A stretch of 14,840 bases of DNA. Source: a bacterium. Lineage in GTDB: Bacteria; JAJRZV01. The notes beneath the pieces are model-generated. The model saw only the letters and a program-made list of their open reading frames with translations, did no database searches and was not told where the DNA came from. The position numbers were made by a program, and so were the translations under genes. Positions 390 to 14,840 of this stretch are shown here, piece by piece (within the stretch, counting starts at the first letter, position 1; each line of letters begins with the position of its first letter). The stretch lies in contig JAJRZV010000091.1 of assembly GCA_024275095.1 (NCBI GenBank), positions 1-14,840 on the forward strand, written 5' to 3'.

Positions 390-1269
390 TTACCTCAACT
401 TTTCTGCAAGCCAGTTCGGAAATTGCTGCCAGGGAATAGCAATATTATTGAATGGAAGATGAGTGGGGCTGCTTACCTGACATACCAAAACTCCCTCATC
501 CGATACACTATCTTTTGCCAACTCCTTAAATTTTTGAAGAGACCTTGTGTGGGCAGGCATCGGAGTCGCAGTTTTCTTTATTTCAACAGGATATAACCTG
601 CCTCCTATTTGAAGCAAGAGATCAATTTCTATCCCATCATGAGAACGCCAGAAAAACATGCTTTTGCCCACACCATAAATTGATAGTATTTTCAAAGCTT
701 TACTTACCATAAATCCTTCAAAAAGCGCTCCCCCCATTGCTCCCATAAGACTCGCTTCGCCGCCAGGCTGAAATGTCAGATCACACACAATGCAGGATCA
801 ATAAAGTAAATTTTAGGAGCACTATACGTTTACGAAAATTCCGGTAAAAAGGCGGAAGAAAAAAGCAAATGTGGGATGCTTCCAGAACCCCTGCCCACGA
901 TTTAATCGTTGGAACCGATACTCCAATCTCTTCTGAAATCCGCGATGCGTTAAAAACCTGAGTGTGATAAGCAGAGCTTAGCCTCAAAAAATTCTCAAAC
1001 AATCTTAAATCTTTAACGTTTATTAACTGCCTGAGGTCTCTCTCCACGTAAGTTTTAATGTAAGACTGCACCCATAATTTTCTTTTTTTTGGATACAGGA
1101 AAGGTTCAGGGTAAAGTCCTCTCCATATAACATCCTCGAGTGTAAACTTTTTTTTGCTTTTCAATTCCTTTATGCTGAAAGGATATAGCTCCAGCACTGC
1201 AACACGTCCTGCAAGGGACTCTGTTATGCCTTTCATCAAAACAAATTGTTGAGAACCTGAAGGAAGGAG
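390..1269 (-). pseudogene. Decayed COG1373-type ATPase with DUF4143 C-terminal region
   Basis: The fragments match the C-terminal two thirds of the AAA-type ATPase family that carries DUF4143. Visible family landmarks, in order, are SGSQQFVLMKGITESLAGRV, an ELYPFSIKEL segment, a WVQSYIKTYVERDL segment, a winged-helix-like stretch (SRISEEIGVSVPTIKSW) and a terminal nuclease-like EIDLLLQIGGRLYPVEIKK region. The N-terminal P-loop portion is missing: recognisable homology stops near 1266 and the sequence upstream is unrelated. The reading frame also changes twice within about 40 bases: once near 815, where the frame must shift to read APKIYFIDPAL, and again near 785, to continue as CDLTFQPGG and GALFEGFMVSKALK. 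A 5' truncation with two frameshifts makes this a pseudogene; sequencing error cannot explain the missing half. It is unrelated in function to the neighbouring operon. Confidence 0.8.
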
Positions 1270-1539
1270 CAGGCATTCCAACCCCCAATAGAGGGGAGGC
1301 CGGGAAGCATTAACGTCCACCCTACCCCACACCACCACCCTAATACTGCGGGCGGGACATACACACGGCAAGCGTGCAAAAAAGAAATCAGGAGGCGGCT
1401 GGTGAGAAACACGGGGGAATACCGGGTACGCGTGCCCACCACTCCCCCAACCAGGAACCAGGGATAGGGCGGGTGGGAAATGTAAACATATTAAGAGAAT
1501 AAACCGGGCTTTCCAACCTGATGTACCAGGTGCTGAAAA
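1270..1539. other. Intergenic stretch without recognisable gene
   Basis: This region lies between the 3' end of the acyl-CoA operon and the ATPase remnant. Reading frames here have no family resemblance. A near-perfect 14-base palindrome (GGGTACGCGTGCCC, 1424-1437, one T-G wobble) and a weak 5-bp hairpin (ACCTG/CAGGT, 1516-1531) are visible, but neither has a T-run after it in the direction of transcription. I see no convincing terminator or promoter. Confidence 0.5.
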
Positions 1540-3030
1540 CTAATCCTCGAGAGTGAGTTTTCTGCGGAGCACTTTGCCAGAGGGAGTTTTGGGTATGGAA
1601 TCCACGAACTTAATGTATCTGGGCACTTTATTGTGAGCGATGCGTTCCCTCATCCACCGGCGCAGTTCGTCTTCCGAGAGCCGGCTTCCCGGCCTGAGCA
1701 CAACGAAGGCTGCAATTTCCTCTCCCATCACTTTGTCAGGCACGCCCTTAACGACCGCCTCCAGTACATCCGGGTGCTGAACCATAACCCTTTCCACGTC
1801 ACCAGGCAGTATATTGAATCCCCCGCGGATGATAAGTTCCTTCTTTCGTCCCACAAGGTGAAGGTAACCATCTTCGTCAAAGTAGCCGAGGTCACCAGTG
1901 TAAAGCCAGCCGTCACGAAGCACCTTTTTTGTCTCTTCGGGATTCTTGAAATATCCTTTCATCACGTTGGGACCCCTCACGACCACTTCACCTGTCTCAC
2001 CAGGCTTCACCGGATTACCCTCTTCGTCCACGATCTTGATTTCCACGCCATCGAGGGGAATACCCACGCTTCCGGGTCGGGGGTTTCTTTCCGGGTTGGC
2101 CGCGATTACGGCTGTGGTTTCAGAAAGCCCATATCCTTCGGCAATCAGCTTACCTGTTCTTCTCTGCCACTCTTTTTGAATCCATTCGGGCAGGGGAGCC
2201 GTACCCGAACCCCAGGTTTCCACGCTTTCGACATATTCCTCCAGCCGGGGGTGTTGAAGCATAACGGCATACATCGCAGGCACACCGCGAAATGCCCTTA
2301 TCCGGTACTTCTTGATATTCTCCAGCACTTCATCCACAACAAATTTTTCCATGAGGACGCTTTTCTTTCTGAAATCCTGGATAAAGTTGGCCACAAGCCC
2401 TAAAAGACCCATGGCGTGTGAAAGGGGAACACAAATGAGCGAAATTTCATTTTTGTGCAGGTAAGGTTTCTGTCTTTCGTAAATCATCTGGACGTTGGAA
2501 CGAATATTACGATGGGTGAGCATTACTCCCTTGGGGACTCCCGTGGTGCCAGAGGTAAAAAGAATAACCGCCACATCATCGTCTGAAACCTCTTCCACGT
2601 CCTCTCTTTCTCCCGTCTCTTCGCAAAGAATCTCCTGGAGACTTTTCCAGTTTTCTCGATCACCGTCTGCCAGAATTCGAATTTTCACCCTCTCCAGGTG
2701 CTCCGAGGCTTTCGAACATGCAATACATGCAACAGGCTCCACAAACTTTACTATGTAAGCGAATTCCTGCTTTCCCAATCGGGGCACCACGGGCACCAGA
2801 ACGGCTCCACAGGCAAGTACTGCCTGAAAGGAAACGTACACCTCGGGCGAATTTTCAAGCGTAACAATCACACGGTCACCTTTCTTTACCCCCTGTTTTC
2901 TCAGGTACGCCTTGAGCTTAAGGCTGTCATTCCACACATCCACATTTGTAATTTCCCTGTCGTGAAAGATGAGAAACACGTATTCACCCAGCCTTTGAAT
3001 GTTCTCCTTCAAAATGTACGCAAGGTTCAT
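1540..3030 (-). CDS. AMP-forming acyl-CoA synthetase (acid:CoA ligase)
   Basis: This 496-residue class I adenylate-forming enzyme would convert a carboxylic acid, ATP and CoA into the acyl-CoA, AMP and PPi, feeding the operon's substrate into beta-oxidation. The core motifs are intact: P-loop TSGTTGVPKG (159-168), YGLSETT (300-306), YTGD (377-380), the GRKKELIIRGG hinge (394-404) and the C-terminal PKTPSGKVLRRKL with the catalytic Lys at 486. The length is typical, and no membrane segment or signal peptide is seen. The ATG at 3030 forms an ATGA overlap with the stop of the preceding dehydrogenase, with a GGAG about 9 bases upstream; ATG 3039 and GTG 3045 are possible but sit on or too near that site. 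It is the last gene of the operon. Substrate specificity cannot be read from the sequence; a medium-chain, branched or cyclic acid is plausible from context. Confidence 0.9.
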   Translation of the reverse strand: MNLAYILKENIQRLGEYVFLIFHDREITNVDVWNDSLKLKAYLRKQGVKKGDRVIVTLENSPEVYVSFQAVLACGAVLVPVVPRLGKQEFAYIVKFVEPVACIACSKASEHLERVKIRILADGDRENWKSLQEILCEETGEREDVEEVSDDDVAVILFTSGTTGVPKGVMLTHRNIRSNVQMIYERQKPYLHKNEISLICVPLSHAMGLLGLVANFIQDFRKKSVLMEKFVVDEVLENIKKYRIRAFRGVPAMYAVMLQHPRLEEYVESVETWGSGTAPLPEWIQKEWQRRTGKLIAEGYGLSETTAVIAANPERNPRPGSVGIPLDGVEIKIVDEEGNPVKPGETGEVVVRGPNVMKGYFKNPEETKKVLRDGWLYTGDLGYFDEDGYLHLVGRKKELIIRGGFNILPGDVERVMVQHPDVLEAVVKGVPDKVMGEEIAAFVVLRPGSRLSEDELRRWMRERIAHNKVPRYIKFVDSIPKTPSGKVLRRKLTLED

Positions 3031-4196
3031 GACGCCCATCTCCACTCTTTCTCAAAAATTTCCCTGGCTATGGTTCTCCTGTGAATTTCGCTGGTTCCTT
3101 CCACAATGCGCAGGGCCCTCATCTTTCGCAGCATCCTCTCCAGCCCGACCTCCCGCATGAGTCCCATTCCCCCGTGAATTTGAATGGCTGTGTCCACAGC
3201 CCTCCACACGAGCTCCGAACCAAACAACTTCACCATGGATGTCTCGGCCCTGCACCTTTCGCCCCTGTCAACCCGCCATGCCGTCCAGTACACCATCCAT
3301 CTCAGGCATTCCAGTTCCGTACTCATGTCCGCAAGCATCCACTGGATCGCCTGTCGCTGGGCGATGGGTTTACCGAAAGTAACACGCTGTTTCGCATATT
3401 CAATGGATTTTCTCAGCATTCGTTCCGTGACCCCCGCGGCCGTTGCCCCGATGGAAAGGCGCCCATGAGAAATCCACTCCATGGCAAGTTTAAAACCCGC
3501 ACCTTCCTCGCCCAGAATGTTCTCCTGTGGAACCCTGACTTCATCGAAGTGAATCTCTCCTGCCAGGCCATCGCGAATGATGGAGTTCTGAACATTTACT
3601 GTAATTCCCGGAGAGTCCATATCCACCAGGAAACAGGTAATTCCACCTCTTGCTCTTTTTTCAGGGTCTGTTACAGCAAAAACCATGGCAAAGTCCGCAT
3701 GGGGACTGCCTGTGATAAAGTGTTTTGTCCCTGTGATAATGTAATCATTTCCGTCTTTTTGGGCCCTTGTCTGAATATTCGCCGCATCCGAACCCGCTCC
3801 CGGCTCGGTCAGCGCAAAGCACGTGGCTTTTTCCACATTCATAAGCGGCAAAAGATATTTTTCCCTCTGCTGCTTATTGCATGCCAGAAGGATGGGGGTG
3901 GGTCCTCCGGCCCCTCCGTAAATATCTGCACCGAAATGGTAGGTTTCGTGCCTGTTAATTTCTTCCACAAGGAGCACAAAGCCCAGAATGCCCATGCCAC
4001 CGCCTCCCACCTCCTCGGGCATGTGGATTCCGTAAAATCCCGCTTCTCTGGCTTTGCGTCTGACCTCGAGTCTCACTTCCCAGGGTATCTCGTCCTCCAT
4101 AAAATATTTTTCCTCGAGAGGTATAATTTCCTTCTTGATGAACCTGCGCAGGTTCTGGAGCATGATTTCGTATTCTTCGCCAATTCTTAAATTCAT
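3027..4196 (-). CDS. Acyl-CoA dehydrogenase, canonical active site
   Basis: This is a 389-residue FAD-dependent acyl-CoA dehydrogenase that should introduce an alpha,beta double bond and pass electrons to ETF. It has the full set of family elements: LTEPGAGSDA (129-138) and KHFITGS (158-164) in the FAD/substrate region, RVTFG (271-275) and QIHGGMG (339-345) contacting FAD across the dimer, and a catalytic Glu in VEGTSE (Glu366). A strong GAGGAGG lies just before ATG 4196, and the gap from the upstream SDR is 10 bases. It aligns almost without gaps to the dehydrogenase at 9646-10800 (same catalytic residue number; shared AGFYGIH-PEEVGGGG and GGAGGPTPILL segments), so the two are paralogues. 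The retained divergence suggests different substrates or steps. No defect is seen. Confidence 0.93.
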   Translation of the reverse strand: MNLRIGEEYEIMLQNLRRFIKKEIIPLEEKYFMEDEIPWEVRLEVRRKAREAGFYGIHMPEEVGGGGMGILGFVLLVEEINRHETYHFGADIYGGAGGPTPILLACNKQQREKYLLPLMNVEKATCFALTEPGAGSDAANIQTRAQKDGNDYIITGTKHFITGSPHADFAMVFAVTDPEKRARGGITCFLVDMDSPGITVNVQNSIIRDGLAGEIHFDEVRVPQENILGEEGAGFKLAMEWISHGRLSIGATAAGVTERMLRKSIEYAKQRVTFGKPIAQRQAIQWMLADMSTELECLRWMVYWTAWRVDRGERCRAETSMVKLFGSELVWRAVDTAIQIHGGMGLMREVGLERMLRKMRALRIVEGTSEIHRRTIAREIFEKEWRWAS

Positions 4197-4206
4197 CCTT
4201 TCCTCC

Positions 4207-5055
4207 TCATTTCAGTGGTTCGAGAAGCCGGGACATATTTTTCTCCAGCAACTGAACATCCCATTTTTCAGGTGCATACATAACCTTCACCTGGTGCGGA
4301 AAAGTCCACAAACTCAGTTCATTGCCCACAATGCCGAAAATCAACCCGGTGATTTCCTTTGCCCGGTCTGAAACAAGAAAGCATACAAGTCCTGCCACGT
4401 ATTCAGGACCGGGTAGTTGAAGGAGCTTGAGGTAACGGGGGTCTTCCCGGGCCTTCTTGCGGATTACCTCCTCGGGAATGGAAAGCGTCATCCTTGTCTT
4501 TGCACCGGGCGCCACAGCATTAACCCGAATCCCGTATTTTTGCAGTTCCATCGAAAGAGTACGTGTAAAACCCAGAATGCCTGCCTTGGCTGCCGCGTAG
4601 TTTGACTGGCCGACATTACCTTTCATTCCAGCGGTGGATGTGATGTTTACAATTGCTCCACTTCCTTTCTCCCGCATAATCTCCACCGCAGCCTTTGAAC
4701 AACAGAACGTGCCTCTCAGGTGTACCCGGATAACATCGTCCCACTCCTCCTCGCTCATTTTCACAAATGTTCTGTCGCGTAAAATTCCAGCGTTATTTAC
4801 AAGAGCATCCAGTGTACCGAACTCTTCCACGGCCGTACCTACAATCCTCTTCGCATCATCAATGGAAGAAACGTCTCCCTTCACCACGGCGATTTTATCC
4901 TTATCCCCCAGCTCCTCCATGGTCTTGTTCAATTCGGCCTCGTCCACGTCGTTAATAACCACCGATGCTCCCTGCTTGAGCATCTCTTCTGCGATGGCCC
5001 TTCCTATACCCCGTGCTGCACCTGTAACCACCGCCACTTTATTCTCAAGAACCAT
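4207..5055 (-). CDS. SDR dehydrogenase resembling the 3-hydroxyacyl-CoA dehydrogenase domain of MFE-2
   Basis: This 282-residue short-chain dehydrogenase has a nucleotide site TGAARGIG (11-18), NNAG (87-90) and the catalytic Ser140, Tyr153 and Lys157. The segment NNAGILRDRTFVKMSEEEW followed by VHLRG, where the usual tetrad Asn is a His, is typical of the dehydrogenase part of peroxisomal multifunctional enzyme type 2 (17-beta-HSD4), which oxidises (R)-3-hydroxyacyl-CoA. Hsd4A of mycobacterial steroid side-chain degradation is a known bacterial relative. After the SDR core there is a tail of about 35 residues (from about 246) of unknown role. I chose ATG 5055 because GGGAGG precedes it by 8 bases; the GTG at 5064 lies inside that ribosome site, although it would make a GTGA overlap with the upstream gene. 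The likely role is NAD(P)-dependent oxidation of a hydroxyacyl-CoA; the substrate is unknown. Confidence 0.88.
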   Translation of the reverse strand: MVLENKVAVVTGAARGIGRAIAEEMLKQGASVVINDVDEAELNKTMEELGDKDKIAVVKGDVSSIDDAKRIVGTAVEEFGTLDALVNNAGILRDRTFVKMSEEEWDDVIRVHLRGTFCCSKAAVEIMREKGSGAIVNITSTAGMKGNVGQSNYAAAKAGILGFTRTLSMELQKYGIRVNAVAPGAKTRMTLSIPEEVIRKKAREDPRYLKLLQLPGPEYVAGLVCFLVSDRAKEITGLIFGIVGNELSLWTFPHQVKVMYAPEKWDVQLLEKNMSRLLEPLK

Positions 5056-5060
5056 CTTTC

Positions 5061-5858
5061 TCACCTCCCTTTGAAATCAGGTTTTCTCTTCTCGGCAAAT
5101 GCACGTCGGCCCTCCTCAAGGTCACGTGTCACGGAGAGGACAGACGCCAGAAGGTGCTCAAGTTCCAGTCCTCTTGCCAGTGGAATTTCAAAGGCACTGT
5201 TCAGGGCAAGCTTGGCAGCCCTGAGAGCGAGAGGTGCTTTTTCTGTGAGCTTGCGTGCAATATCCATGGCTCGACCCAGGAGTTTTTCATCTTCCACAAC
5301 TTCGCTCACCAGACCGTAATCCTTTGCCCGTTGAGCGTCGAAAATCTCGCCCATGAGTATGATTTCTTTGGCTCGTGCCAGCCCCACCAGCCTCACAAGT
5401 CGCTGCGTACCGCCTGCAGATGGTATTGCCCCGATGTTCACTTCTGTGAGGCCGAATCGTGCTGATGCCCCTGCAATGCGAAGGTCACACGCGAGGGCCA
5501 GTTCAAGTCCGCCGCCAACAGCCACACCGTTGACGGCCGCAATGGCGGGAAAAGGCAGATTTTCAAGGGTTTCAAAAAACCTTCTCGAAATGTTCAAATG
5601 CGCAGTTCGATGGAAGGGAGAGGCGTCCGGCGGGAGAGCCTCTGACATTTTCTTTCTTTCTCTGAGGTCTGCACCCACGCAAAAGGCCCTTCCTTCGCCC
5701 GTGATAATACACGCCCTGACCTCTTCGGCTATCATGCGCGAAGTGCAGTCCAGCAGTTCCTCAAACATCTGCATTGAAAATGCGTTGAGAACATCCGGGC
5801 GCGAAAGCTGAACGATCCCTATGGCATCTTCTTTATCAAATTTTATCGTTTCGTACAT
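5061..5858 (-). CDS. Enoyl-CoA hydratase/isomerase family protein (crotonase)
   Basis: This is a 265-residue crotonase-fold protein expected to hydrate an enoyl-CoA to the (S)-3-hydroxyacyl-CoA. The oxyanion-hole segment AFCVGADL (58-65) and the second oxyanion glycine in GVAVGGGLELALACDL (111-126) are present. Both catalytic glutamates of true hydratases are in place, Glu119 (GGGLEL) and Glu139 (LTEVNIGAIPSAGGTQRL), so hydration is more likely than isomerisation or decarboxylation. Length is normal for a single-domain hydratase. ATG 5858 is preceded by AGAGGTGA, and the gap to the upstream SDR is 17 bases. Lying between two SDR genes, it probably supplies one of them with a hydroxyacyl-CoA in a conventional beta-oxidation round. 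The MaoC pair upstream would handle a different, (R)-type or tertiary hydration. Confidence 0.92.
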   Translation of the reverse strand: MYETIKFDKEDAIGIVQLSRPDVLNAFSMQMFEELLDCTSRMIAEEVRACIITGEGRAFCVGADLRERKKMSEALPPDASPFHRTAHLNISRRFFETLENLPFPAIAAVNGVAVGGGLELALACDLRIAGASARFGLTEVNIGAIPSAGGTQRLVRLVGLARAKEIILMGEIFDAQRAKDYGLVSEVVEDEKLLGRAMDIARKLTEKAPLALRAAKLALNSAFEIPLARGLELEHLLASVLSVTRDLEEGRRAFAEKRKPDFKGR

Positions 5859-5875: not shown

Positions 5876-6661
5876 TTAAACTGTGGTATATCCTCCGCTC
5901 ACGCTCAGTGTCTGTCCCGTGATAAAAGAGGCTCGCTCGGATGCAAGAAACGTCACAGCAGAAGCCACGTCTTCCACCTCACCCAGCCGACCCAGCGGAT
6001 ACCTTCTGAGGACCTTCTTCTGTCTTTCTGCGAACTTCTCCTCCCCAATTTGCGCTTTCATCTTTTCGTATATTTCCTGAATGTGGTCCGTGAGGGTTGC
6101 TCCCGGAGACACGCAGTTTACAGTAATGGAGTACTTTCCCACCTCCTTGGCCAGTGCCTTTGAAAGTCCGATAATGCCGGCCTTGGCAGCGGAGTACACC
6201 ACCAGTCCGGGCTCTCCGATTCTTCCCGCATCAGAAACAATATTGATAATTCTGCCCCATTTCCTCTCCATCATCCCGGGGAGCACCTCCCTCGTAAAGT
6301 AAATGGTTCCCATGAGGCACACACCGAGTACCTTCTGCCATTCTTCTTCCCGGGTATCAATGAATTTGCCCGAGTCCCCGATACCTGCACAGTTGACGAG
6401 AATGTCTATTCTTCCAAACTTCTGGAGGGCTCTTTCCACGCATCTTTTAACATCTGCATAAGATGAAACATCTCCGGGAATCGCCAGGGTATCCACACCC
6501 TTTGCAGAAATTTCTTCAGCTGCAGCAACCGCTTTTTCCTCCACCACGTCGTTCACGCACAGGTGTACACCCTCCTCTGCCAGAGCAATCCCTATGCCTT
6601 TGCCCATGCCCTGGCCTGCACCCGTGACAAGTGCAACCCTGTCCTTAATCTTCATGTCCAT
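5876..6661 (-). CDS. SDR family dehydrogenase (hydroxyacyl-CoA dehydrogenase-like)
   Basis: This 261-residue classical SDR has TGAGQGMG (13-20) for the dinucleotide, NCAG (90-93) and the catalytic Ser143, Tyr156 and Lys160; the C-terminus ends in the usual ITGQTLSVSGGYT pattern. The tetrad Asn position reads Cys115 (VLGVCLMG), a departure from the family norm. The SDAGRIG-x5-VYSAAKAG stretch is reminiscent of BadH-type 2-hydroxycyclohexanecarboxyl-CoA dehydrogenases, but that similarity is from memory and also fits FabG-like and other hydroxyacyl-CoA dehydrogenases. ATG 6661 is favoured over ATG 6655 because GGAGGAG lies 4-6 bases upstream. It overlaps the preceding dehydrogenase gene by 17 bases, suggesting translational coupling. 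The probable role is oxidation of a 3-hydroxyacyl-CoA formed by the adjacent enoyl-CoA hydratase. Confidence 0.88.
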   Translation of the reverse strand: MDMKIKDRVALVTGAGQGMGKGIGIALAEEGVHLCVNDVVEEKAVAAAEEISAKGVDTLAIPGDVSSYADVKRCVERALQKFGRIDILVNCAGIGDSGKFIDTREEEWQKVLGVCLMGTIYFTREVLPGMMERKWGRIINIVSDAGRIGEPGLVVYSAAKAGIIGLSKALAKEVGKYSITVNCVSPGATLTDHIQEIYEKMKAQIGEEKFAERQKKVLRRYPLGRLGEVEDVASAVTFLASERASFITGQTLSVSGGYTTV

Positions 6662-7715
6662 TTTTCTCCTCCTCTATCCACAAAGGTCCTCTCCAGTAGT
6701 GGAGAACTGTTTTTTCGAGTTCATTTCCCTGAAACCATCTTCCGGCAACACTTTTGGCCTTTTTGTAGTAAAGGTGTACGGGCATCTCTACCGTGAAGCC
6801 CATGGCACCGTGAATCTGGTGACAGTTTTTCGTGGCCTGTTCAGACACCTCGGCAGCAAACATAAAAGCCAGTGCCGATGCACCCTTCCATACCTCTAAA
6901 CCGCGTTTACACAGGTATCCGCTCTCATTCACCATGAACCCGCAGCCCCGTATGTTCATGTAGTCATCAGCGAGCATGTGCCTTATGGCCTGGAAAGAAC
7001 CGATGGGGCGACCGAACTGGACTCTTTCACGTGAATACTTCACGGCTCTGCTAAAAGCACCTTCTGCAATTCCCAGCAATTCAGCAGAAGACAGGAGCCA
7101 TATCATGCACCGTGCATCCAGCAGTGTATCCTTATCTCCAAGTACCCGCTCTCTTGTACACGCGGTATCACATTTCAGCGTGTAAACCGGTTCGTCCGAC
7201 ATCATGTCCACCTTTTCATGCTGATATTCACCCTTCAAGAGAAGAACAGGATGCACGCCACCGTCTGTCTCCACATCCACAATGACCCCGTCCGCGTCCT
7301 CCAGGAAAAACGCAAATTTTCCTTCGCACTGAACGTTCAATCGCTCTCCTTTCCATGTCCCCTGAGCCGTGTTTTCGGTGTCGAAAGCTACCGAGATAAT
7401 CTTTTCACCCTTGACAATCGCTTTGGTCAGTTCCTTGAAAGGTCCCTCCCGCTTTGAAAGCAGGTAAAGTGAAACATGACAATCAAGCGCCGGAGAAATA
7501 AACAGGTGCCTCCCGAACACCCGGAAAGAAACCACCGAAAGAATCGGGTCGCCGGGAAAAACGAAGCCCAGAGTGCACATGCGACGGTAAAGTTCCCGAT
7601 CAAATCTTTTACTCAGAAGTACCCGGTACGAAACATCAGGATATGAAGCATCTTTCAGAAGGCGGGACAGTTCGTCTTCAAGCATTTTTTCTTCTCTGGA
7701 GGGTTCAAAGTTCAC
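6645..7715 (-). CDS. Acyl-CoA dehydrogenase-like subunit lacking catalytic Glu (FadE28/ChsE1-like)
   Basis: This is a 356-residue acyl-CoA dehydrogenase homologue that cannot work alone as read. The N-terminal and middle parts have lost the TEPxAGSD and FITG segments, and there is neither an EGTS-type C-terminal Glu nor an LxxER-type internal Glu. It keeps YSRERVQFGRPIGSFQAIRH (227-246) and QIHGAMGFT (300-308), the elements that hold FAD of the partner subunit. This is the pattern of ChsE1 (FadE28), which forms a heterotetramer with ChsE2 (FadE29) in steroid side-chain degradation. The partner is the upstream gene, which it overlaps by 11 bases. I chose GTG 7715 because GGAG lies 7 bases upstream and VNFEPSREEKML aligns with normal family N-termini. 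GTG 7721 is too close to that site, and ATG 7685 would remove part of the first helix. Confidence 0.85.
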   Translation of the reverse strand: MNFEPSREEKMLEDELSRLLKDASYPDVSYRVLLSKRFDRELYRRMCTLGFVFPGDPILSVVSFRVFGRHLFISPALDCHVSLYLLSKREGPFKELTKAIVKGEKIISVAFDTENTAQGTWKGERLNVQCEGKFAFFLEDADGVIVDVETDGGVHPVLLLKGEYQHEKVDMMSDEPVYTLKCDTACTRERVLGDKDTLLDARCMIWLLSSAELLGIAEGAFSRAVKYSRERVQFGRPIGSFQAIRHMLADDYMNIRGCGFMVNESGYLCKRGLEVWKGASALAFMFAAEVSEQATKNCHQIHGAMGFTVEMPVHLYYKKAKSVAGRWFQGNELEKTVLHYWRGPLWIEEEKNGHED

Positions 7716-8859
7716 TGCCACGCTCCATAACTATTTTCGAAATAAGATTTCGCTGAACCTGGGACGTACCTCCACCGATAGTGGACGCCACGCAGTGCCT
7801 GTACCAGAATTCAATTCTTCCCCTCAGAAGAGCACGTGCTGACGAAGACTTCACCTGCCCCCTGTAACCCAGGATTTCCAGTCCCGCTCCTGCCAGTTCA
7901 TGGTAAAGAAGGGAAGTGAACAACTTGGAAACACTGGCATCGAGTGTAAAGTCTTTCCCCATATCCTGCCTCCAGGAAGCATTGTAATAAAGAAGCCGCG
8001 CCACCTCCGCCCGTGCCATGAGAGAACACAACCTGCGCCTGATGTAGGAGTCACTATCCATCCCGTTCTGCATCACATGATCTTTAAGCTCATTCACAAG
8101 CCTGTAAGCATTCCTCATGTTTCCCAGGCCCACCCTTTCCATTCCCAGGGTTTTCCTCACCACCTTCCACGCACCGTTCACCTCCCCCACAACATATTTC
8201 CTGTGTACCTTCACACCATCCATAAACACTTCATTCACCCGCCACCCGCTGGAGGTGTAAATGGGCCTGACCTCCACTCCATTCTGGTGCAGGTCCACGA
8301 TGAAGAAAGTAAGGCCTTCGTGTTTCTCTTTCGAAGGGTCGGTGCGAGCAAGCGTGAGCATATAATGGGCGAGGTGGGCACCTGTGATAAACACCTTTGT
8401 GCCATTGAGAACAAAATGGTCTCCCTCTTCCACGGCCCGTGTTTTCACGGACGCGGCGTCAGAACCCGCATCCGGCTCTGTAATACCCAGACAGCAGATA
8501 ATTTCACCTCGGGCGATGCGGGGTAAAAATTCCTTTTTTTGTTCTTCTGTACCGGCGTGAATGATGGACTGAGCAAACAGGCCCACGGTTGAACCGAACC
8601 CGCCCATGGGCGCCTCGTTGTACCCCATGATTTCCATGAAAATGGCCATGTCCATCCGTGTACCGCCGCTGCCTCCGAACTCCCGTGGCCAGGCCAGTCC
8701 GATAAACCCGGCTTCTGCAAGGCGCTGATAAAATTCGTCGCAGTGCGTTTCACCCTTCTGAAAGAGCTCTTCCACCCGTTGAGGTGAAAGGTTCTCCCTG
8801 AGGAATTCCTCGATCCTCTCCTTGAGAGCAAGCTGGTCACTTGTAAAGGAAAAATCCAT
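7705..8859 (-). CDS. Acyl-CoA dehydrogenase catalytic subunit (FadE29/ChsE2-like)
   Basis: This 384-residue acyl-CoA dehydrogenase has ITEPDAGSDAASVKTRA (126-142) and KVFITGA (155-161) intact. The usual C-terminal catalytic Glu is absent: the IGEGTS position reads IGGGTS (Gly363). A Glu is present instead in GMERVG (Glu241), the internal helix site used as catalytic base by isovaleryl-CoA dehydrogenase-type enzymes and by ChsE2. The RxxFG and QIHGG elements are also lost (LGYRGQV at 330-336). What it lacks is what the next gene keeps, so an obligate heteromer with composite FAD sites is the natural reading. Its ATG overlaps the MaoC stop as TGATG. Such heteromers act on bulky CoA esters, for example short steroid side chains attached to a ring; the substrate here is unknown. 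Confidence 0.9.
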   Translation of the reverse strand: MDFSFTSDQLALKERIEEFLRENLSPQRVEELFQKGETHCDEFYQRLAEAGFIGLAWPREFGGSGGTRMDMAIFMEIMGYNEAPMGGFGSTVGLFAQSIIHAGTEEQKKEFLPRIARGEIICCLGITEPDAGSDAASVKTRAVEEGDHFVLNGTKVFITGAHLAHYMLTLARTDPSKEKHEGLTFFIVDLHQNGVEVRPIYTSSGWRVNEVFMDGVKVHRKYVVGEVNGAWKVVRKTLGMERVGLGNMRNAYRLVNELKDHVMQNGMDSDSYIRRRLCSLMARAEVARLLYYNASWRQDMGKDFTLDASVSKLFTSLLYHELAGAGLEILGYRGQVKSSSARALLRGRIEFWYRHCVASTIGGGTSQVQRNLISKIVMERGSEL

Positions 8860-9230
8860 CAGAGCGTCCCCCGACCTTCTCCCGCCACGTGAACCGAGCC
8901 TCCTGTGTCTTCCACCGTGGCCTTAAAATGCACCTGAGAGCCTTCAACATTTTCAATAACGATCTTTGCGAATATTTCCTCTCCAGGCCTGGCAGGTTTT
9001 ATGAATTTCACGTGAAAAGAAAACCCATTCTCGAATTTGCCCTCAAGAAGCTCCACCAGATACTGGAGCATGATCACCCCGTGGGCAATGGTGCCTCCCA
9101 GGCCCACTTTCCTGGCAAACTCTTCGTCCACGTGAATGGGATTGAAGTCACCCGAAAAACGAGCAAACGCGTTGATGAAATCCTGGGTAATGAAAAGTGT
9201 TCTGGAAGTAAAGGATTCACCTTTCTTCAT
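8859..9230 (-). CDS. MaoC-family (R)-enoyl-CoA hydratase, catalytic subunit (ChsH1-like)
   Basis: This is a 123-residue single hot-dog protein. It carries the hydratase-2 signature FSGDFNPIHVDEEFA (25-39) with catalytic Asp28 and His33, followed by GGTIAHG (45-51). It would add water across an enoyl-CoA. The frame stays open far upstream, but ATG 9230 is chosen because GGAGGTCC sits just before it and the upstream gene stops at 9241; the translated extension has no family resemblance. The immediately preceding gene encodes a MaoC-fold partner without this motif. Together they resemble the ChsH1-ChsH2 heteromer, where the ChsH1-type subunit carries the active-site residues. Position next to the FadE29/FadE28-like pair suggests that it hydrates their product. 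Confidence 0.9.
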   Translation of the reverse strand: MKKGESFTSRTLFITQDFINAFARFSGDFNPIHVDEEFARKVGLGGTIAHGVIMLQYLVELLEGKFENGFSFHVKFIKPARPGEEIFAKIVIENVEGSQVHFKATVEDTGGSVHVAGEGRGTL

Positions 9231-9240
9231 GACGGACCTC

Positions 9241-9624
9241 CTATTCAGGCACCACAAAACTGAAGGAGCACTCTGCCACTGCCGTTCCATCAAGAGTTTG
9301 AATGTCCAGGCGAATAACCACGTACTTCCTTCCTCGTTTCTCATACTTGTCGTGCACCACAGCCTTTGCTCTGAAATTCCTTTCTTCAGTTGGACGAACA
9401 AGGGTGAATGACTGCGCCGCGTGAATGGTGCCGGGTTGAATGGAGCACACCTCAGCAAGGGGGCGGAATGCGTGAAGCATGACAAGGTAAGGAGGAGTAT
9501 GTGAAAAAGGCTCCCGCTTAAAGAGTTTCCTGTACTCTTCAAACTTTTCGCCGGGTATGGAAAACTCTGCTTCGAATTCCTCTCCTACGTTCATGTCCTT
9601 ATAGCTAATCAGCCTTTTCTCCAT
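9241..9624 (-). CDS. MaoC-fold (FAS1-like dehydratase) subunit without catalytic motif
   Basis: This 127-residue protein resembles the N-terminal MaoC-like/FAS1-like dehydratase domain. Recognisable elements are HTPPYLVMLHAFRPL (42-56), a QSFTLVRPT turn (71-79) and DKYEKRGRKYVVI (92-104). The Asp/His hydratase signature is missing, so it should be a structural or substrate-binding partner of the next gene's product, like the MaoC half of ChsH2. In actinobacterial ChsH2 this half is fused to a DUF35 domain; here DUF35 is encoded separately at 10802-11701. Start: GGGAGGTG precedes ATG 9624 by about 8 bases, while the in-frame GTG at 9633 lies inside that ribosome site. It lies 21 bases after the upstream dehydrogenase and 10 bases before the catalytic MaoC gene. 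Confidence 0.8.
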   Translation of the reverse strand: MEKRLISYKDMNVGEEFEAEFSIPGEKFEEYRKLFKREPFSHTPPYLVMLHAFRPLAEVCSIQPGTIHAAQSFTLVRPTEERNFRAKAVVHDKYEKRGRKYVVIRLDIQTLDGTAVAECSFSFVVPE

Positions 9625-9645
9625 GTGCGCCACCTCCCTTGCTCC

Positions 9646-10800
9646 TCAGTACTCCTCGAGAAGCCTACGTGCAATGGTAAGCCGCTGTATCTCGCTGGTA
9701 CCCTCTCCGATCCGGGCCGCCCGTACCACCTGATACAGCCTGGCAATGGGAAGTTCTCTCATGAACCCCATGCCGCCGTGAATTTGAAGTGCCCGGTCTA
9801 TCACCCTGCCGGCCATTTCCGAAGCGTACACCTTGGCCATGGCTGACTCCTTTCGCACATCCATCCCCTGCGAAGCCTTCCACGCTGTAGAGTAAAGGAT
9901 GCTCTTTGCTGCGAATATTTCTGTGGCTGAATCCGCCACCATCCACTGTATGGCCTGGTATCGGGCTATGGGCCTGCCAAAAGCAACCCTTTCCTTTGCC
10001 CACTTCACTGCAAGGTCCAGGGCACCCTGGGCTGAGCCCGTACACTGGGCCGCCACAACCAGACGACCCAGGGTGATCCACTTCATTGCCTGGATAAAAC
10101 CCATGCCCTCCTTCCCGAGCACCTGCTCCTCGCCCACCTCGCAGTCTTCGAATATCAGCTCGCCGTGCATTCTTGTGCCCGTCATTGTTTCGTGAATCCT
10201 TCCCACTTCAAATCCGGGAGTTCCCTTCTCCACGATAAAACCGGTGATGCCCTTGATGCCCTTCGAAGGATCGGTAACAGCAAACACCAGGGCGAAATCT
10301 GCGTAAGGAGCGTTCGTGATAAAGTGCTTTCTGCCGTTAATGACATACCTCCCGTTTTTCTTCACGGCCCGGGTTTTAATGGCAGTGGCATCCGAACCTG
10401 CTCCCGGCTCGGTCAGCGCAAAGCACATGGTCTTTTCAGCTCTGATAAGCGGTTTGAGGTACTTTTCAATCTGTTCTTCAGACCCATCCAGCAAAATTGG
10501 TGTGGGTCCCCCTGCACCGCCGATAATATCCGTGGAGAAGTGAATAATGAGGCTCTTGCCCAGTTCCTCGAGAAGGAGCACATAGCCGAAAATGTCCAGG
10601 CCACCACCGCCCACCTCTTCGGGCAGGTGGATCCCGTAAAAGCCCGCCTTACGGGACAGTCTTCTCACCTCCATGTGGACTTCATAAGGTACGGCGTTTT
10701 CAAATTTGTACTTTTCCTCATAAGGTCTTATCTCCTTTTCCAGAAACCTTCGAAACTGGTCTCTTAACAACACGTATTCCTGGGGTATTTCAAAATCCAT
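9646..10800 (-). CDS. Acyl-CoA dehydrogenase, canonical active site
   Basis: This is a 384-residue FAD-dependent acyl-CoA dehydrogenase with all expected residues: LTEPGAGSDA (129-138), KHFITNA (158-164), RVAFG (271-275), QIHGGMG (339-345) and catalytic Glu366 in GEGTSE. It is a close paralogue of the enzyme at 3027-4196, and the two TEPGAGSD-coding segments are nearly identical at DNA level. It interrupts the presumed aldolase/hydratase block, lying between the DUF35 gene and the MaoC pair. It starts one base after the DUF35 stop, with GAGGAATGAG before the ATG. It likely dehydrogenates an acyl-CoA intermediate as a homotetramer, with electrons passing to ETF, which is not encoded here. The substrate is not determinable from sequence alone. 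Confidence 0.93.
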   Translation of the reverse strand: MDFEIPQEYVLLRDQFRRFLEKEIRPYEEKYKFENAVPYEVHMEVRRLSRKAGFYGIHLPEEVGGGGLDIFGYVLLLEELGKSLIIHFSTDIIGGAGGPTPILLDGSEEQIEKYLKPLIRAEKTMCFALTEPGAGSDATAIKTRAVKKNGRYVINGRKHFITNAPYADFALVFAVTDPSKGIKGITGFIVEKGTPGFEVGRIHETMTGTRMHGELIFEDCEVGEEQVLGKEGMGFIQAMKWITLGRLVVAAQCTGSAQGALDLAVKWAKERVAFGRPIARYQAIQWMVADSATEIFAAKSILYSTAWKASQGMDVRKESAMAKVYASEMAGRVIDRALQIHGGMGFMRELPIARLYQVVRAARIGEGTSEIQRLTIARRLLEEY

Positions 10801-10801
10801 C

Positions 10802-11701
10802 TCATTCCTCCACTGGTTCGAAATAAAGAATGTCTTTCAGACTGCCCTCTCTTTTTTCACTCCACACGGCCCTTACACGCATGCCTGTCCTGATGCTTTC
10901 GGGAGAGCCCCTGATTAAATGATTGAAGGGAGTATGGGAGCCCGAGAGCACAATCCGTGCAAAGATCACCGGCGGCTGCAGGGGCGAATCAGGAATTTTC
11001 AGATAATAGGGCACCCAGGAATCAACCACCCCCTCGTCAGGAAGTTCAACCACCTCCTCGCACCTGGTAAAACAGACACCGCAGTAGGGAAAAGGCGGAA
11101 ACAGTACCCTGTGGCATCCGGGACATTTCACACCTACAAGTTTTCCCTGACGGATGTTTTTTCTGAAAAGGTCTCCCATGCTTCCAAGCGCCCATTCATA
11201 CTGAACACGAATGCGCCCGTTTATAACTTTCGGCTTTGCAGGCGCTGGCAGATCCTGCTCTCCGCTATTCACAGTTTCCTTACCTTCCGGTTCAAATCCC
11301 CTGATGTCAGCAAGTGACCCGGTGGTTTCCTCTTCCCACACGAGCCGCACGCGTGTGCCTATCTCTGGAATGTGTTTCGAATGAAGGTAGCGGTGATAAA
11401 AAATACTGCTTGTTCCGTCAATCTTTACACCCACGAGAACATAGGGGCTCTTCCATGGATTGTTTGGAAAATCCCTGCTCACGCGAACAGCCGCAACCAC
11501 TTCGCCCTTTCCTTCCACCGGTGTAAATTCCATGTCTTTAAGGCACCGGGGACAAAATCGAAGCGGGGGCACGACCTTCACGTCACACCGTCTGCAGATA
11601 GTTCCCAGAAACGTCCTGTTGCGCAATCCTTCAAAAAAACGGGAGGCGGCTTCTCCTGCGGCCCACTCGTATTCGTTCTCTATGGCACCTGTGACAAACA
11701 T
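10802..11701 (-). CDS. Tandem DUF35 (zinc-ribbon/OB-fold) protein, thiolase/aldolase partner
   Basis: The 299-residue product consists of two DUF35 units in tandem. Each begins with a YEWAxG-type helix (EYEWAAGEAASRFF near 10-23; QYEWALGSMGDLF, 167-179), has a rubredoxin-like zinc ribbon C-x2-C-x10-C-x2-C (Cys36/39/50/53 and Cys193/196/207/210), an OB-fold and a closing GSLxDIxxFEP (128-138 and 286-296). A Pro-rich linker lies near 140-160. DUF35 proteins bind thiolase-fold enzymes and help bind CoA, as in BbsA of anaerobic toluene degradation, archaeal HMG-CoA synthase/thiolase complexes and the DUF35 part of ChsH2 with Ltp2. A double unit downstream of two thiolase-fold genes suggests one unit per thiolase-type subunit. 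The start follows AAGGAGG: ATG 11701 overlaps the thiolase stop as TGATG, and ATG 11704 is an equal alternative. Confidence 0.88.
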   Translation of the reverse strand: MFVTGAIENEYEWAAGEAASRFFEGLRNRTFLGTICRRCDVKVVPPLRFCPRCLKDMEFTPVEGKGEVVAAVRVSRDFPNNPWKSPYVLVGVKIDGTSSIFYHRYLHSKHIPEIGTRVRLVWEEETTGSLADIRGFEPEGKETVNSGEQDLPAPAKPKVINGRIRVQYEWALGSMGDLFRKNIRQGKLVGVKCPGCHRVLFPPFPYCGVCFTRCEEVVELPDEGVVDSWVPYYLKIPDSPLQPPVIFARIVLSGSHTPFNHLIRGSPESIRTGMRVRAVWSEKREGSLKDILYFEPVEE

Positions 11702-12861
11702 CATGCCTCCTTTGAAAGCACGCATACGGTGGCAAACTGCTGGGCACCACCCCATCCCATGGCCACCGCATTCTTTACATCACCCACCTGGCGCTCACCT
11801 CCTTTACCCATTACCTGCACAGCGGCCTCGACCACCCGAAGCATAGCGGCATCCGACCCGTTGTTAGTAGCGAGGACGCCTCCCGAAGGATTAACGGGAA
11901 GTCTCCCCGTGAAAGAAAAATCCCCTTTTTCAACAAGCGTTTTTGCCTCTCCTGCATCACAAAGAAGAAGGGCCTCCATCCAGTGCATGGTCTGGTAAGA
12001 ACATGCATTGTAAAGTTCAACCACCTGAACCTCTTTCCTCGGTTGATGGAGTCCTGCCATCAAATAGGCCTTGCGGGCCGCTTCCTTTACACACCGTGCC
12101 TCGAGCACATTCCTTTCGGGGTATGTGGCAGGTTCGGCCACGGCGAAAAAGCCTCTTACCCATGCACACTTCTTTCCACGTGCTATATTTTCAGATGCCA
12201 CAATTACGGCGGCTGATCCCACTGACGTGGGACACATGTCAAGGCGTTTCACCGGTGGTGCAATGGGTGGAGAATTGAGTACGTCATCCACGGTGACCTT
12301 CTCTCTCAAATGTGCATAAGGATTTCGGGAAGCATTTTCCCGCGCGTTCACGACGCACATGGCAGCGTGTGTCTCAGTGGCTCCGGTAGTTTCCATGTAC
12401 TGCCTGAAAGTCATGGCGAGACCCATGATGGCTCCGCCGGAAAATCCACGGGTGTATATGGGGTCAACCGCCATCTGAAGGGCACGCTGTGAGCGAGCAC
12501 CGGACGCACCCGCTCTCACCGTTCCTGCTGCTGCAAGTACAATGTCAAAGTCCCCGGAAGCGACCAGCGACACCGCGGCCAGCACGGCAGAGGCCCCGAC
12601 GGTACCTCCTGTCTGAAGTCTGAAAGAGGGCTTGAGATGCCCGCACATGGAATCCACAACGAGTTTTCCCACCTGCTCGATCCCATCCTGAATTGACGTG
12701 ATGGCACTTCCAAAAACCACGGCCTCCACGTCTCCCGGTTCAACCCCCGCATCCCTGAGGGCCTCTCTTACCGAAAGGGCAATCAGTTCCTGCTCGTTCA
12801 CCTCAGGCATCCGCGAACGGTGGGGGATCTGACCCGTACCTATAATGGCAACCTTTCTCAC
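11701..12861 (-). CDS. Thiolase-fold protein without catalytic Cys/His (Ltp2-like aldolase candidate)
   Basis: This 386-residue protein has the SCP-x type thiolase fold, with an N-terminal KVAIIGTGQIPH and a VNPSGGVL segment (323-330). The thiolase chemistry residues are missing. The nucleophile Cys region reads RLQTGGTVGASAVLAA (81-96). The usual HD(C/A)F site reads ELYNAC (Tyr284), and the GHPxGATG His site reads ATNNGSDAA. This is the pattern of the Ltp2-type steroid aldolases, which cleave a beta-hydroxyacyl-CoA by retro-aldol reaction with Tyr residues and need a DUF35 partner; a Tyr at the ELY position would fit. GTG 12861 has AGGAG five bases upstream and follows the previous thiolase-fold gene by 8 bases; the DUF35 gene overlaps its stop. 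Alternatives are a non-catalytic thiolase subunit or a BbsB-like enzyme. Confidence 0.85.
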   Translation of the reverse strand: MRKVAIIGTGQIPHRSRMPEVNEQELIALSVREALRDAGVEPGDVEAVVFGSAITSIQDGIEQVGKLVVDSMCGHLKPSFRLQTGGTVGASAVLAAVSLVASGDFDIVLAAAGTVRAGASGARSQRALQMAVDPIYTRGFSGGAIMGLAMTFRQYMETTGATETHAAMCVVNARENASRNPYAHLREKVTVDDVLNSPPIAPPVKRLDMCPTSVGSAAVIVASENIARGKKCAWVRGFFAVAEPATYPERNVLEARCVKEAARKAYLMAGLHQPRKEVQVVELYNACSYQTMHWMEALLLCDAGEAKTLVEKGDFSFTGRLPVNPSGGVLATNNGSDAAMLRVVEAAVQVMGKGGERQVGDVKNAVAMGWGGAQQFATVCVLSKEA

Positions 12862-12869
12862 GGTAACTC

Positions 12870-13952
12870 CTACGCCGCGGCCTCCAGTAACATTACCGTG
12901 TTCGACTGCATTCCTGTCCCGGAGTAAGCATGGACGCAGACACGTTTCACAGGAACCGAAGGGGCGAAAGGCAGTGAATCACCACGAAGGTAAAGAGACC
13001 CAAATGCAAGGCGGTAAAGTCCGCACGCCACGAGAACGGTGGAATGCAGGGCTCCCCCTGACGGATTGACCCTTCCCTCCCTTATGAACTGTGGAAGGTC
13101 AGCAGGGTCGCATATGCCAGCAACTTCGCTCATGCGTATAAGGTGATGGGGGGTAGGCTCCGAAAGCTCCCATGCATCCACGTCTCCGGGTGCCATACCA
13201 GCACGTTCAAGCACCCTTCTTACAGCGACCTCGAAAGAAGAAAGGCCTGAAGGTTCCCTGAGGCTGAGCGTTCCTGAATCCACTGAGACCCACGAGGATG
13301 CAATCTTAACGGGCGCAGGACAGCGATTTTTATCTCCTGTGAGCACCACGGCCACTGCTCCGTCAGCATAAAGCGGAAGGTCCTTCTCGCGAAGCGGATG
13401 CACCACCACCTCGTCACTTCTCTCACCGGAGGCGACAAATGGATTTCTCTTCACATTCGTACGAAGCGCATCAAGCACTTCATCTGGTGAGAGAAACCCG
13501 TTACCTTTCATCGCAGAAGCCTGAAGTGCCAGCAACACCCACTCGTTGAATCCAAGATCCCTGAAAAGCACGGGGTCGAATGAAGCATTGAAATATGAGT
13601 GAACATCCAGACACGAGGATTTTGAATAGCCAAACACAAGCACATTTTCTGAAAGCCCGGCCTTTATTCTCTTTTCTGCATAAAAAAGTGCTGTGAGGCC
13701 ATCCTCTTCGAGTTTGCCCTCGCTCTTCAGATAGCACCCTGCGGCAGCGAGAATATCAGTGTTGGAAAGGCCCTTCCCGTCCAGAAGGTCAACACCTGCA
13801 TCAACGACAGTATCCATGTCTTTTATTGAAAGGCTGCAGTCAGCAAGGGCCTGGCTGACCGCCTGGTAAACCAGGTCGGCAAAGGTATCTTCACATTTCA
13901 CCTTCATGGGGGTGAAGCCCACGCCCGCAACATATACATCCTTCTTTTTCAC
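12870..13952 (-). CDS. Divergent thiolase-fold protein without catalytic residues
   Basis: This 360-residue product has a thiolase-like beginning (KKKDVYVAGVGFTPMKV), the NPSGG motif (296-300) and a C-terminal HAYSGTGMQSN where thiolases carry their second Cys. The nucleophile Cys region reads KLEEDGLTALFYAEKRIKAG (80-99), with Glu where Cys is expected. The HD(C/A)F site reads ELSEPT, and no GHPxGATG His is seen. It is more divergent than the next gene's product and is probably its partner in a heteromer, or a second aldolase-type subunit. The start is GTG 13952, overlapping the TGA of the upstream dehydrogenase (GTGA). No strong ribosome site is visible, which fits translational coupling. 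The upstream in-frame extension duplicates the dehydrogenase coding region and is not credible. The function of this protein on its own is not known to me. Confidence 0.8.
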   Translation of the reverse strand: MKKKDVYVAGVGFTPMKVKCEDTFADLVYQAVSQALADCSLSIKDMDTVVDAGVDLLDGKGLSNTDILAAAGCYLKSEGKLEEDGLTALFYAEKRIKAGLSENVLVFGYSKSSCLDVHSYFNASFDPVLFRDLGFNEWVLLALQASAMKGNGFLSPDEVLDALRTNVKRNPFVASGERSDEVVVHPLREKDLPLYADGAVAVVLTGDKNRCPAPVKIASSWVSVDSGTLSLREPSGLSSFEVAVRRVLERAGMAPGDVDAWELSEPTPHHLIRMSEVAGICDPADLPQFIREGRVNPSGGALHSTVLVACGLYRLAFGSLYLRGDSLPFAPSVPVKRVCVHAYSGTGMQSNTVMLLEAAA

Positions 13953-14840
13953 TTCTTGTACCCCAGTACAGCGTTGGCAATAATCAGTTTTTGAATATTG
14001 GTTGTGCCCTCGCCGATTTGATACATCTTGGCATCCCTGAACAAACGAGCAATTTTGAACTCTTCCGAATAACCATAGGCCCCGAAGATTTCCATGGCCT
14101 TGCCGGCACACTTCACGCACGTCTCTGAAGCAAAAAACTTTGCCATGCTTCCGGTTATGCGTGCATCGTCTCCTCTCTCGAGAGCGTCCGCGTGTTCAAG
14201 CACCAGCAGGTGCGCGGCCTCAATCTCAGTGGCCATGGTGGCAATGGCATCCTTGATCATCTGGAATTTTCCTATCTCAACACCGAACTGGACTCTTTCA
14301 CGGGAATATTTTACAGCCTCCTCCAGGCACGCCCGGGCCACTCCTACAGCCCCGGCAGCCACGGATAGGCGCCCCCTTACCAGCGCTTCCATGGCGATAT
14401 CAAAACCCTCTCCTTCGCTACCAAGACGGTTTTCCTGGGGGACAAAGCAATCGGAAAAAACAATTTCACCGGTGGGCGAAGCATGGTGGCCCACCTTCTT
14501 TTCAAAGGTCCGTCTTTCCATACCTTCCGTTTGAGAAAACACAATGAATGCAGAGAGTCCCTCTTTCCTCCTGGCAGGGTCCGTGCGTGCAAACACCACA
14601 GCAACGTCGAAAATTGGTGCGTGCGAAATCCAGGTCTTTGTCCCGTTGAGCACGTATCCTCCTTCCACTTTCTCTGCCCTGAGAGAAATGGATGCCACGT
14701 CCGACCCGGCACCCGGCTCGGTAAGTGCTAACGCTCCTATCCACTCGCCCTTCACGAGCTTTTTTACACAATCGTACCAGCGAGAGCCCCCGTGCCTGTA
14801 AATGGTCATGGCACCGGTCAGTCCGTTGGTGTTGAACAAG
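13949..14840 (-). CDS. Acyl-CoA dehydrogenase, 5' end beyond the window
   Basis: The last ~297 codons of an acyl-CoA dehydrogenase are present and the N-terminal helical domain is off the window. Visible elements are LTEPGAGSDVAS, the KTWISHA segment, SRERVQFGVEIGKFQMIKD for cross-subunit FAD contact, MEIFGAYGYS at the QIHGG position, and a catalytic Glu in GEGTTNIQK near the C-terminus. It is therefore a complete, canonical enzyme as far as it can be read. It is the first gene of the operon in this window and is coupled to the following thiolase-fold gene by a GTGA overlap. It does not belong to the 3027/9646 paralogue pair: the C-terminal half differs clearly, for example IFGAYGYS instead of IHGGMG. 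The promoter and any regulator lie further upstream, outside the window. Confidence 0.92.
   Translation of the reverse strand, partial: LFNTNGLTGAMTIYRHGGSRWYDCVKKLVKGEWIGALALTEPGAGSDVASISLRAEKVEGGYVLNGTKTWISHAPIFDVAVVFARTDPARRKEGLSAFIVFSQTEGMERRTFEKKVGHHASPTGEIVFSDCFVPQENRLGSEGEGFDIAMEALVRGRLSVAAGAVGVARACLEEAVKYSRERVQFGVEIGKFQMIKDAIATMATEIEAAHLLVLEHADALERGDDARITGSMAKFFASETCVKCAGKAMEIFGAYGYSEEFKIARLFRDAKMYQIGEGTTNIQKLIIANAVLGYKK

Follow-up and report, generated by a model that had tools for sequence, protein, structure and literature searches.

Cysteine-less thiolase folds that work with DUF35 partners raise the question as to whether a gene run containing them shortens acyl-CoA (acyl-coenzyme A) chains by retro-aldol cleavage instead of thiolysis, and which known system such a run resembles. 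We addressed this for the window, a stretch of 14,840 bp that is the entire contig C57 of a bacterial genome (2.45 Mb, 97% complete), in which an operon encodes two such thiolase-fold proteins (T1 and T2), a tandem DUF35 protein, a pair of MaoC proteins and a pair of acyl-CoA dehydrogenases (ACADs). A preliminary description of this DNA had read positions 6645-13952 as a mirror image of the actinobacterial igr operon for steroid side chains. Our analysis places T1 and T2 with Ltp4 and Ltp3 and not with Ltp2 of igr, and on balance we lean towards the view that the operon encodes a beta-oxidation-type route with an Ltp3-Ltp4-like retro-aldol cleavage of a branched or ring-attached acyl-CoA. The core genes are as follows:

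12870..13952, minus strand: T1, Ltp4-class cysteine-less thiolase-fold subunit, with its real start a GTG near 13952
11701..12861, minus strand: T2, Ltp3-class cysteine-less thiolase-fold subunit, with an invariant Tyr284 at the HDCF/YDHF position
10802..11704, minus strand: tandem DUF35, two fused units of zinc ribbon and OB-fold, putative aldolase scaffold
9646..10800, minus strand: ACAD2, classical acyl-CoA dehydrogenase with the EGT glutamate
9241..9624, minus strand: MaoCi, degenerate hot-dog subunit without the hydratase active-site housing
8859..9230, minus strand: MaoCa, predicted active-type MaoC hydratase
7705..8859, minus strand: FadE29-like catalytic subunit of an alpha2beta2 acyl-CoA dehydrogenase
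6645..7721, minus strand: FadE28-like non-catalytic partner subunit

The thiolase-fold pair and its DUF35 partner

Both T1 and T2 are recognised by thiolase models, the best NCBIfam models being NF005924 for T1 (98 bits) and NF006180 for T2 (295 bits), both under their curated cutoffs, and the predicted structures (predicted local distance difference test, pLDDT, 81-83) have DUF35-associated thiolases as their best PDB matches. A close solved structure of the T1/T2 type was not found, with the best sequence match being 6esq at 119 bits. The nucleophilic cysteine that defines thiolases is absent from both subunits, as the preliminary description had noticed. T2 has LQTGGTVG opposite the MEDACASG of a cysteine thiolase, a glycine replacing the nucleophile, and T1 has LEEDG followed by a gap at this stretch. 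At the HDCF/YDHF position T2 reads YNAC, and the tyrosine is invariant across 15 T2 proteins. Mutagenesis has identified the tyrosine of YDHF as the base in Ltp2, and Tyr302 and Cys304 as essential in the aldolase Sal (PMC12329534); of these two residues T2 has the tyrosine and lacks the second.

In a tree of 54 thiolase-fold sequences, 21 T1 proteins including Ltp4 form a clade of their own (99/98), as do 21 T2 proteins together with Ltp3 (99/96), Ltp2 lies outside both among other proteins, and an approximately unbiased (AU) test rejects the forced placement of the window's T2 with Ltp2 (p = 0.0003). A paralogous pair on contig C131 of the same genome falls apart from both clades. On this phylogenetic evidence the kin of T1 and T2 are Ltp4 and Ltp3 rather than Ltp2, and the second thiolase-fold gene, which had been described as added, is present as stated but is not new, being the Ltp3/Ltp4 arrangement itself.

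Judged by sequence, the closest precedent is Ltp3-Ltp4, described in reviews as a heteromeric aldol-lyase for the C24-C25 bond of C24-branched sterols (PMC6678751; PMC6273163). The two systems share the clades, the adjoining tandem DUF35, the missing cysteines and nearby CoA ligases. Tandem DUF35, Ltp4 and Ltp3 genes are adjacent in Nocardia farcinica, Nonomuraea, S. clavuligerus and the actinobacterial genome G373, an unannotated record whose genes we named from gene order and kinship. We take this trio to be of the Rv3521-Rv3523 type, with a published gene table used alongside for this equation (PMC6429209). The window differs in that its DUF35 gene follows T2, whereas the actinobacterial one precedes T1, in an operon that includes the alpha2beta2 dehydrogenase and the MaoC pair, in the missing steroid ring genes, and in identities of only 25-33%.

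The tandem nature of the DUF35 protein is confirmed: it matches PF12172 and PF01796 twice and retains all eight ribbon cysteines of its two zinc-ribbon/OB units (CxxC pairs 37/40, 51/54, 194/197 and 208/211), whereas the one actinobacterial tandem examined, upstream of Ltp4-Ltp3 (L202 6588-7616), has lost them all. The Comamonas bile acid aldolase Sal-Shy (PMC12329534) likewise combines a thiolase fold lacking the nucleophilic cysteine, a DUF35 partner and a catalytic tyrosine, but Sal forms a homodimer core with YDCY where the window has the YNAC of T2 and a T1 partner. The benzoylsuccinyl-CoA thiolase BbsAB also pairs DUF35 with a thiolase fold, and the second DUF35 unit gives a weak match to the BbsA model (32 bits against a cutoff of 250); BbsAB is, however, annotated as a thiolase and has a cysteine in the aligned segment (IINVQSACSAG in 7pxp_C) where T2 has LQTGGTVG.

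The dehydrogenase and MaoC pairs

The best solved relatives of the FadE29-like protein are Tcur3483 (6wy8_B, 3.6e-59) and 4x28_A, and those of the FadE28-like protein are 4x28_D and 6wy8_A. The former carries the helix-G glutamate, the latter has no catalytic glutamate at either known position, and each falls inside its own alpha2beta2 clade (100/100 in both cases). On these features the pair is assigned the catalytic/non-catalytic design of the alpha2beta2 steroid-type acyl-CoA dehydrogenases; the preliminary description had named the two genes FadE29-like and FadE28-like. The FadE29-like subunit is basal to the FadE26/29 and FadE30/31 groups; AU tests reject FadE29 orthology (p = 1.3e-5) and placement in the FadE26/FadE29 group (p = 1.3e-5 and 0.005), so that the catalytic subunit lies outside the Chs families to which it had been tied. 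The FadE28-like subunit groups with FadE27/28 at 91/90 (AU p = 0.116 in the FadE28-orthology test).

One inactive and one active MaoC gene had been described, and the alignment agrees: MaoCi has lost the housing segment, and MaoCa carries SGDFNPIH and matches PF01575 (1.8e-20). MaoCi itself has no Pfam match; its homologues match PF13452, as does the N-domain of ChsH2. These relatives, at 20-30% identity, occur in 7 of 386 genomes, always adjoining or fused with an active MaoC, and two of them retain a ChsH2-like housing with histidine changed to tyrosine, where that of the window's MaoCi is lost. In two loci the degenerate and active domains are fused in one protein of 308-311 aa (L139 9870-10805; L140 1449-2375). 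Frames of 314 aa with MaoCi homology in genomes G365 and G097, considered as ChsH2-type MaoC-DUF35 fusions, proved to be MaoC-MaoC fusions. MaoCa matches HadB at 1e-7 to 1e-8, and both HadB and the MFE-2 hydratase (hydratase 2) are far better matches than ChsH1 (E = 0.06); MaoCi sits close to ChsH2, but only on a long branch, and no DUF35-MaoC fusion was found. Orthology of the pair with ChsH1-ChsH2 would thus not appear to be supported. HadAB-type enzymes share the combination of degenerate and active subunits, but differ in that the window's MaoCi has lost its housing segment entirely and stands in a catabolic context.

Genome G373 contains, besides an mce/fadE26-fadE27 region, an igr operon (fadE28, fadE29, chsH2, chsH1 and ltp2 beside cyp125- and fadA5-like genes). 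The window shares with igr the functional part list, the alpha2beta2 dehydrogenase design and the dead and live MaoC proteins. It differs in the clade of its thiolase-fold proteins, in the rejected FadE29 orthology, in having two thiolase-fold subunits, in unfused MaoC and DUF35 genes, and in reading YNAC and an Asn region where Ltp2 has YDHF and Tyr344. The gene order is no exact mirror, as the inactive-to-active MaoC order is identical in both operons, and direct kinship with igr is rejected by the trees and AU tests of the thiolase-fold proteins and the FadE29-like subunit.

Extent and conservation of the operon

The minus-strand run extends from 14840 to 1540 and comprises at least 14 genes, in the order ACAD1, T1, T2, tandem DUF35, ACAD2, MaoCi, MaoCa, FadE29-like, FadE28-like, short-chain dehydrogenase (SDR) 1, enoyl-CoA hydratase (ECH), SDR2, ACAD3 and FadD. 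As its intergenic junctions measure only -19 to +21 bp, we regard it as one operon. The range first described spans only T1 to the FadE28-like gene, the parts named for it all lying on the minus strand at those coordinates or close to them, and the operon continues on both sides:

13949..14840, minus strand: ACAD1, classical acyl-CoA dehydrogenase (Pfam), with its 5' part on contig C13
5876..6661, minus strand: SDR1, short-chain dehydrogenase
5061..5858, minus strand: ECH, crotonase fold
4207..5064, minus strand: SDR2, FabG-like dehydrogenase
3027..4196, minus strand: ACAD3, classical acyl-CoA dehydrogenase
1540..3045, minus strand: FadD-like acyl-CoA ligase, the last gene of the operon

Upstream the operon continues onto C13, whose 3' end overlaps the window's upstream end in a 317-bp dovetail (315/317 identical), and synteny with genome G289, of an unrelated lineage, gives independent support. 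Upstream of ACAD1, C13 contains a T2-like gene, a split T1, DUF35, an HMG-CoA (3-hydroxy-3-methylglutaryl-CoA)-synthase-like/DUF35 fusion, a cysteine thiolase, a PaaK-like ligase, DUF35, a second cysteine thiolase, an ACAD and an ECH. On a single contig G289 has the same order across the C13-C57 join: PaaK, DUF35, cysteine thiolase (61% identity), ACAD (57%), ECH (48%), ACAD1 (57%, at the equivalent position), T1 (40%), T2 (62%), two unfused DUF35 genes, FadE29-like (47%), FadE28-like (29%) and SDR1 (65%). ACAD2 and the MaoC pair are missing from the G289 operon and were therefore either gained in the window or lost in G289.

The second T1 gene on C13 is frameshifted into two overlapping frames (L019 8922-10243; C13:39921-41242), representing a pseudogene or an assembly error, and the HMG-CoA-synthase-like protein with its fused DUF35 domain (L019 10647-12002) lies in the same gene run, ahead of a cysteine thiolase. 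Beyond the operon's end, a DUF4143/AAA_14 ATPase gene (window 390-1371, minus strand) has its N- and C-terminal parts in different frames and is apparently decayed.

Candidate reactions, substrate and distribution

In the route that we favour, the FadD-type ligase and the PaaK-type ligase on C13 would make the acyl-CoA, and ordinary rounds would be run by the classical dehydrogenases, the crotonase, the SDRs and the C13 cysteine thiolase. At a beta carbon that is fully substituted, the alpha2beta2 dehydrogenase would introduce a double bond, which a MaoCi/MaoCa heterodimer would hydrate to a tertiary beta-hydroxyacyl-CoA. A heterodimer of T1 and T2, with the fused tandem DUF35 holding it, would then split this product by retro-aldol cleavage, giving a short acyl-CoA and a ketone. 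The hydroxyl would give up its proton to Tyr284 of T2 (cf. Tyr294 in Ltp2 and Tyr302 in Sal), with T1 as a structural or substrate-shaping partner. Retro-aldol cleavage, which the preliminary description had already proposed, is the best inference for T1-T2 and the most reasonable reading of tyrosine-bearing thiolase folds with DUF35 partners, because the pair groups with Ltp4/Ltp3 and the DUF35 trio recurs in actinobacteria, and because the cysteine is lost while a tyrosine stands at the YDHF/YDCY position that mutagenesis of Ltp2 and Sal has singled out (PMC12329534). The wider route is favoured by the split catalytic roles of the alpha2beta2 pair and by the syntenic operon of G289.

Several points weigh against it. 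T2 has alanine in place of the Ltp2 histidine and the essential cysteine of Sal, lacks Tyr344, and has methionine (AMGWGG) for the C-terminal histidine of most T2 proteins, so that a general acid cannot be named. In the cited literature the activity of Ltp3/Ltp4 rests on gene deletion and not on purified enzymes (PMC6678751; PMC6273163). With the MaoC pair missing in the G289 operon, the MaoC step is no fixed part, and genes for SDRs and classical thiolases lie close by. The earlier argument that an aldolase is needed since an SDR could not act is weakened accordingly, as the two SDRs in the operon and the cysteine thiolases on C13 encode thiolytic rounds.

These same genes allow an MFE-2-like route, possible although we think it rather unlikely, in which the product of the MaoC pair is a secondary (3R)-hydroxyacyl-CoA, to be oxidised by an SDR and cleaved by the C13 thiolase, leaving T1-T2-DUF35 to another round with the crotonase. 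SDR1 and SDR2 lie inside the operon, the cysteine thiolase has HDCF and GHP motifs and is accompanied in this conserved operon by a DUF35 of its own, MaoCa is closest to MFE-2 hydratase 2 and HadB, and T1-T2 of G289 have no MaoC pair beside them; however, the MaoC genes lie between the gene for the putative scaffold and those for the alpha2beta2 dehydrogenase, and ChsH1-ChsH2 uses a degenerate/active pairing for large substrates (PMC11321319). The HMG-CoA-synthase-like/DUF35 fusion upstream on C13 would suit T1-T2-DUF35 as an unusual thiolase or a C-C forming acyltransferase of Claisen or Friedel-Crafts type, comparable to DUF35-bound PhlABC or the HMG-CoA synthase complex, yet neither subunit has the acyl-accepting cysteine that thiolases and PhlABC-type transferases use, and we regard this as improbable. 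Least probable of all, and in our view quite unlikely, is a non-actinobacterial equivalent of igr/ltp3-ltp4 for steroid or sterol side chains. The dehydrogenase pair, DUF35 and Ltp3/4 match at family level, but searches of the host genome gave only a short FAD-motif match for KstD/AcmB and no match for IpdA, while the same KstD and IpdA searches found full-length matches in G373. The genome's two Rieske proteins (144 and 165 aa, one in a cytochrome b/multihaem cytochrome cluster) are too short for ring-hydroxylating oxygenases. These results make the known steroid ring routes unlikely, counting against 9,10-seco and 2,3-seco degradation and not against side-chain removal alone.

The substrate is therefore probably not a steroid, and may be a branched, terpenoid or alicyclic acid. 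Among markers of aromatic and anaerobic hydrocarbon activation, a glycyl radical enzyme was not found in the host genome, and a BadFG-like match on C52 was discarded, as its neighbours at a contig end are Mla-type and peptide ABC genes, and the sequence read around it contains no genes for benzoyl-CoA reductase. A cluster on C34 (L214 2013-8896) with multihaem cytochromes, a Rieske protein of 158 aa and cytochrome b hints at a respiratory anaerobe or a metal/nitrogen-oxide reducer. The host is non-actinobacterial as far as can be told, as had been suggested, none of the compared genomes being of its phylum.

Scanning with a three-row T2 alignment recovered all or part of the T1-T2-DUF35-DUF35 order in metagenome-assembled genomes (MAGs) carrying the labels Planctomycetota, Actinomycetota, Leptospiraceae, Spirochaetales, Syntrophomonadaceae, Clostridia, Sulfobacillus and Proteobacteria. 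In Leptospirales/Spirochaetales MAGs (L089, L093, L095, L097) T1-T2 have next to them an acyl-CoA ligase to which the second DUF35 is fused. The host has further units on C8, C27 and C131 in addition to C13. An alpha2beta2 pair in the same gene run was seen only in the window and G289, the pair lying 8-15 kb away in Nocardia and G373. In the cited literature the Ltp3-Ltp4 aldolase is known by genetics in actinobacteria only (PMC6678751; PMC6273163). We tentatively suggest that an Ltp3/Ltp4-type heterodimer with two DUF35 units may be a general, largely anaerobic means, found in many phyla, of cutting acyl chains of branched or isoprenoid type where the beta carbon is blocked, with the sterol enzyme as an actinobacterial offshoot and at least four cassettes in this host for different substrates. 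Its presence outside sterol degraders, in syntrophic Firmicutes, spirochaetes, planctomycetes and others, would make the reaction testable in small soluble systems and could change many annotations that now read 'acetyl-CoA acetyltransferase' or 'lipid-transfer protein'.

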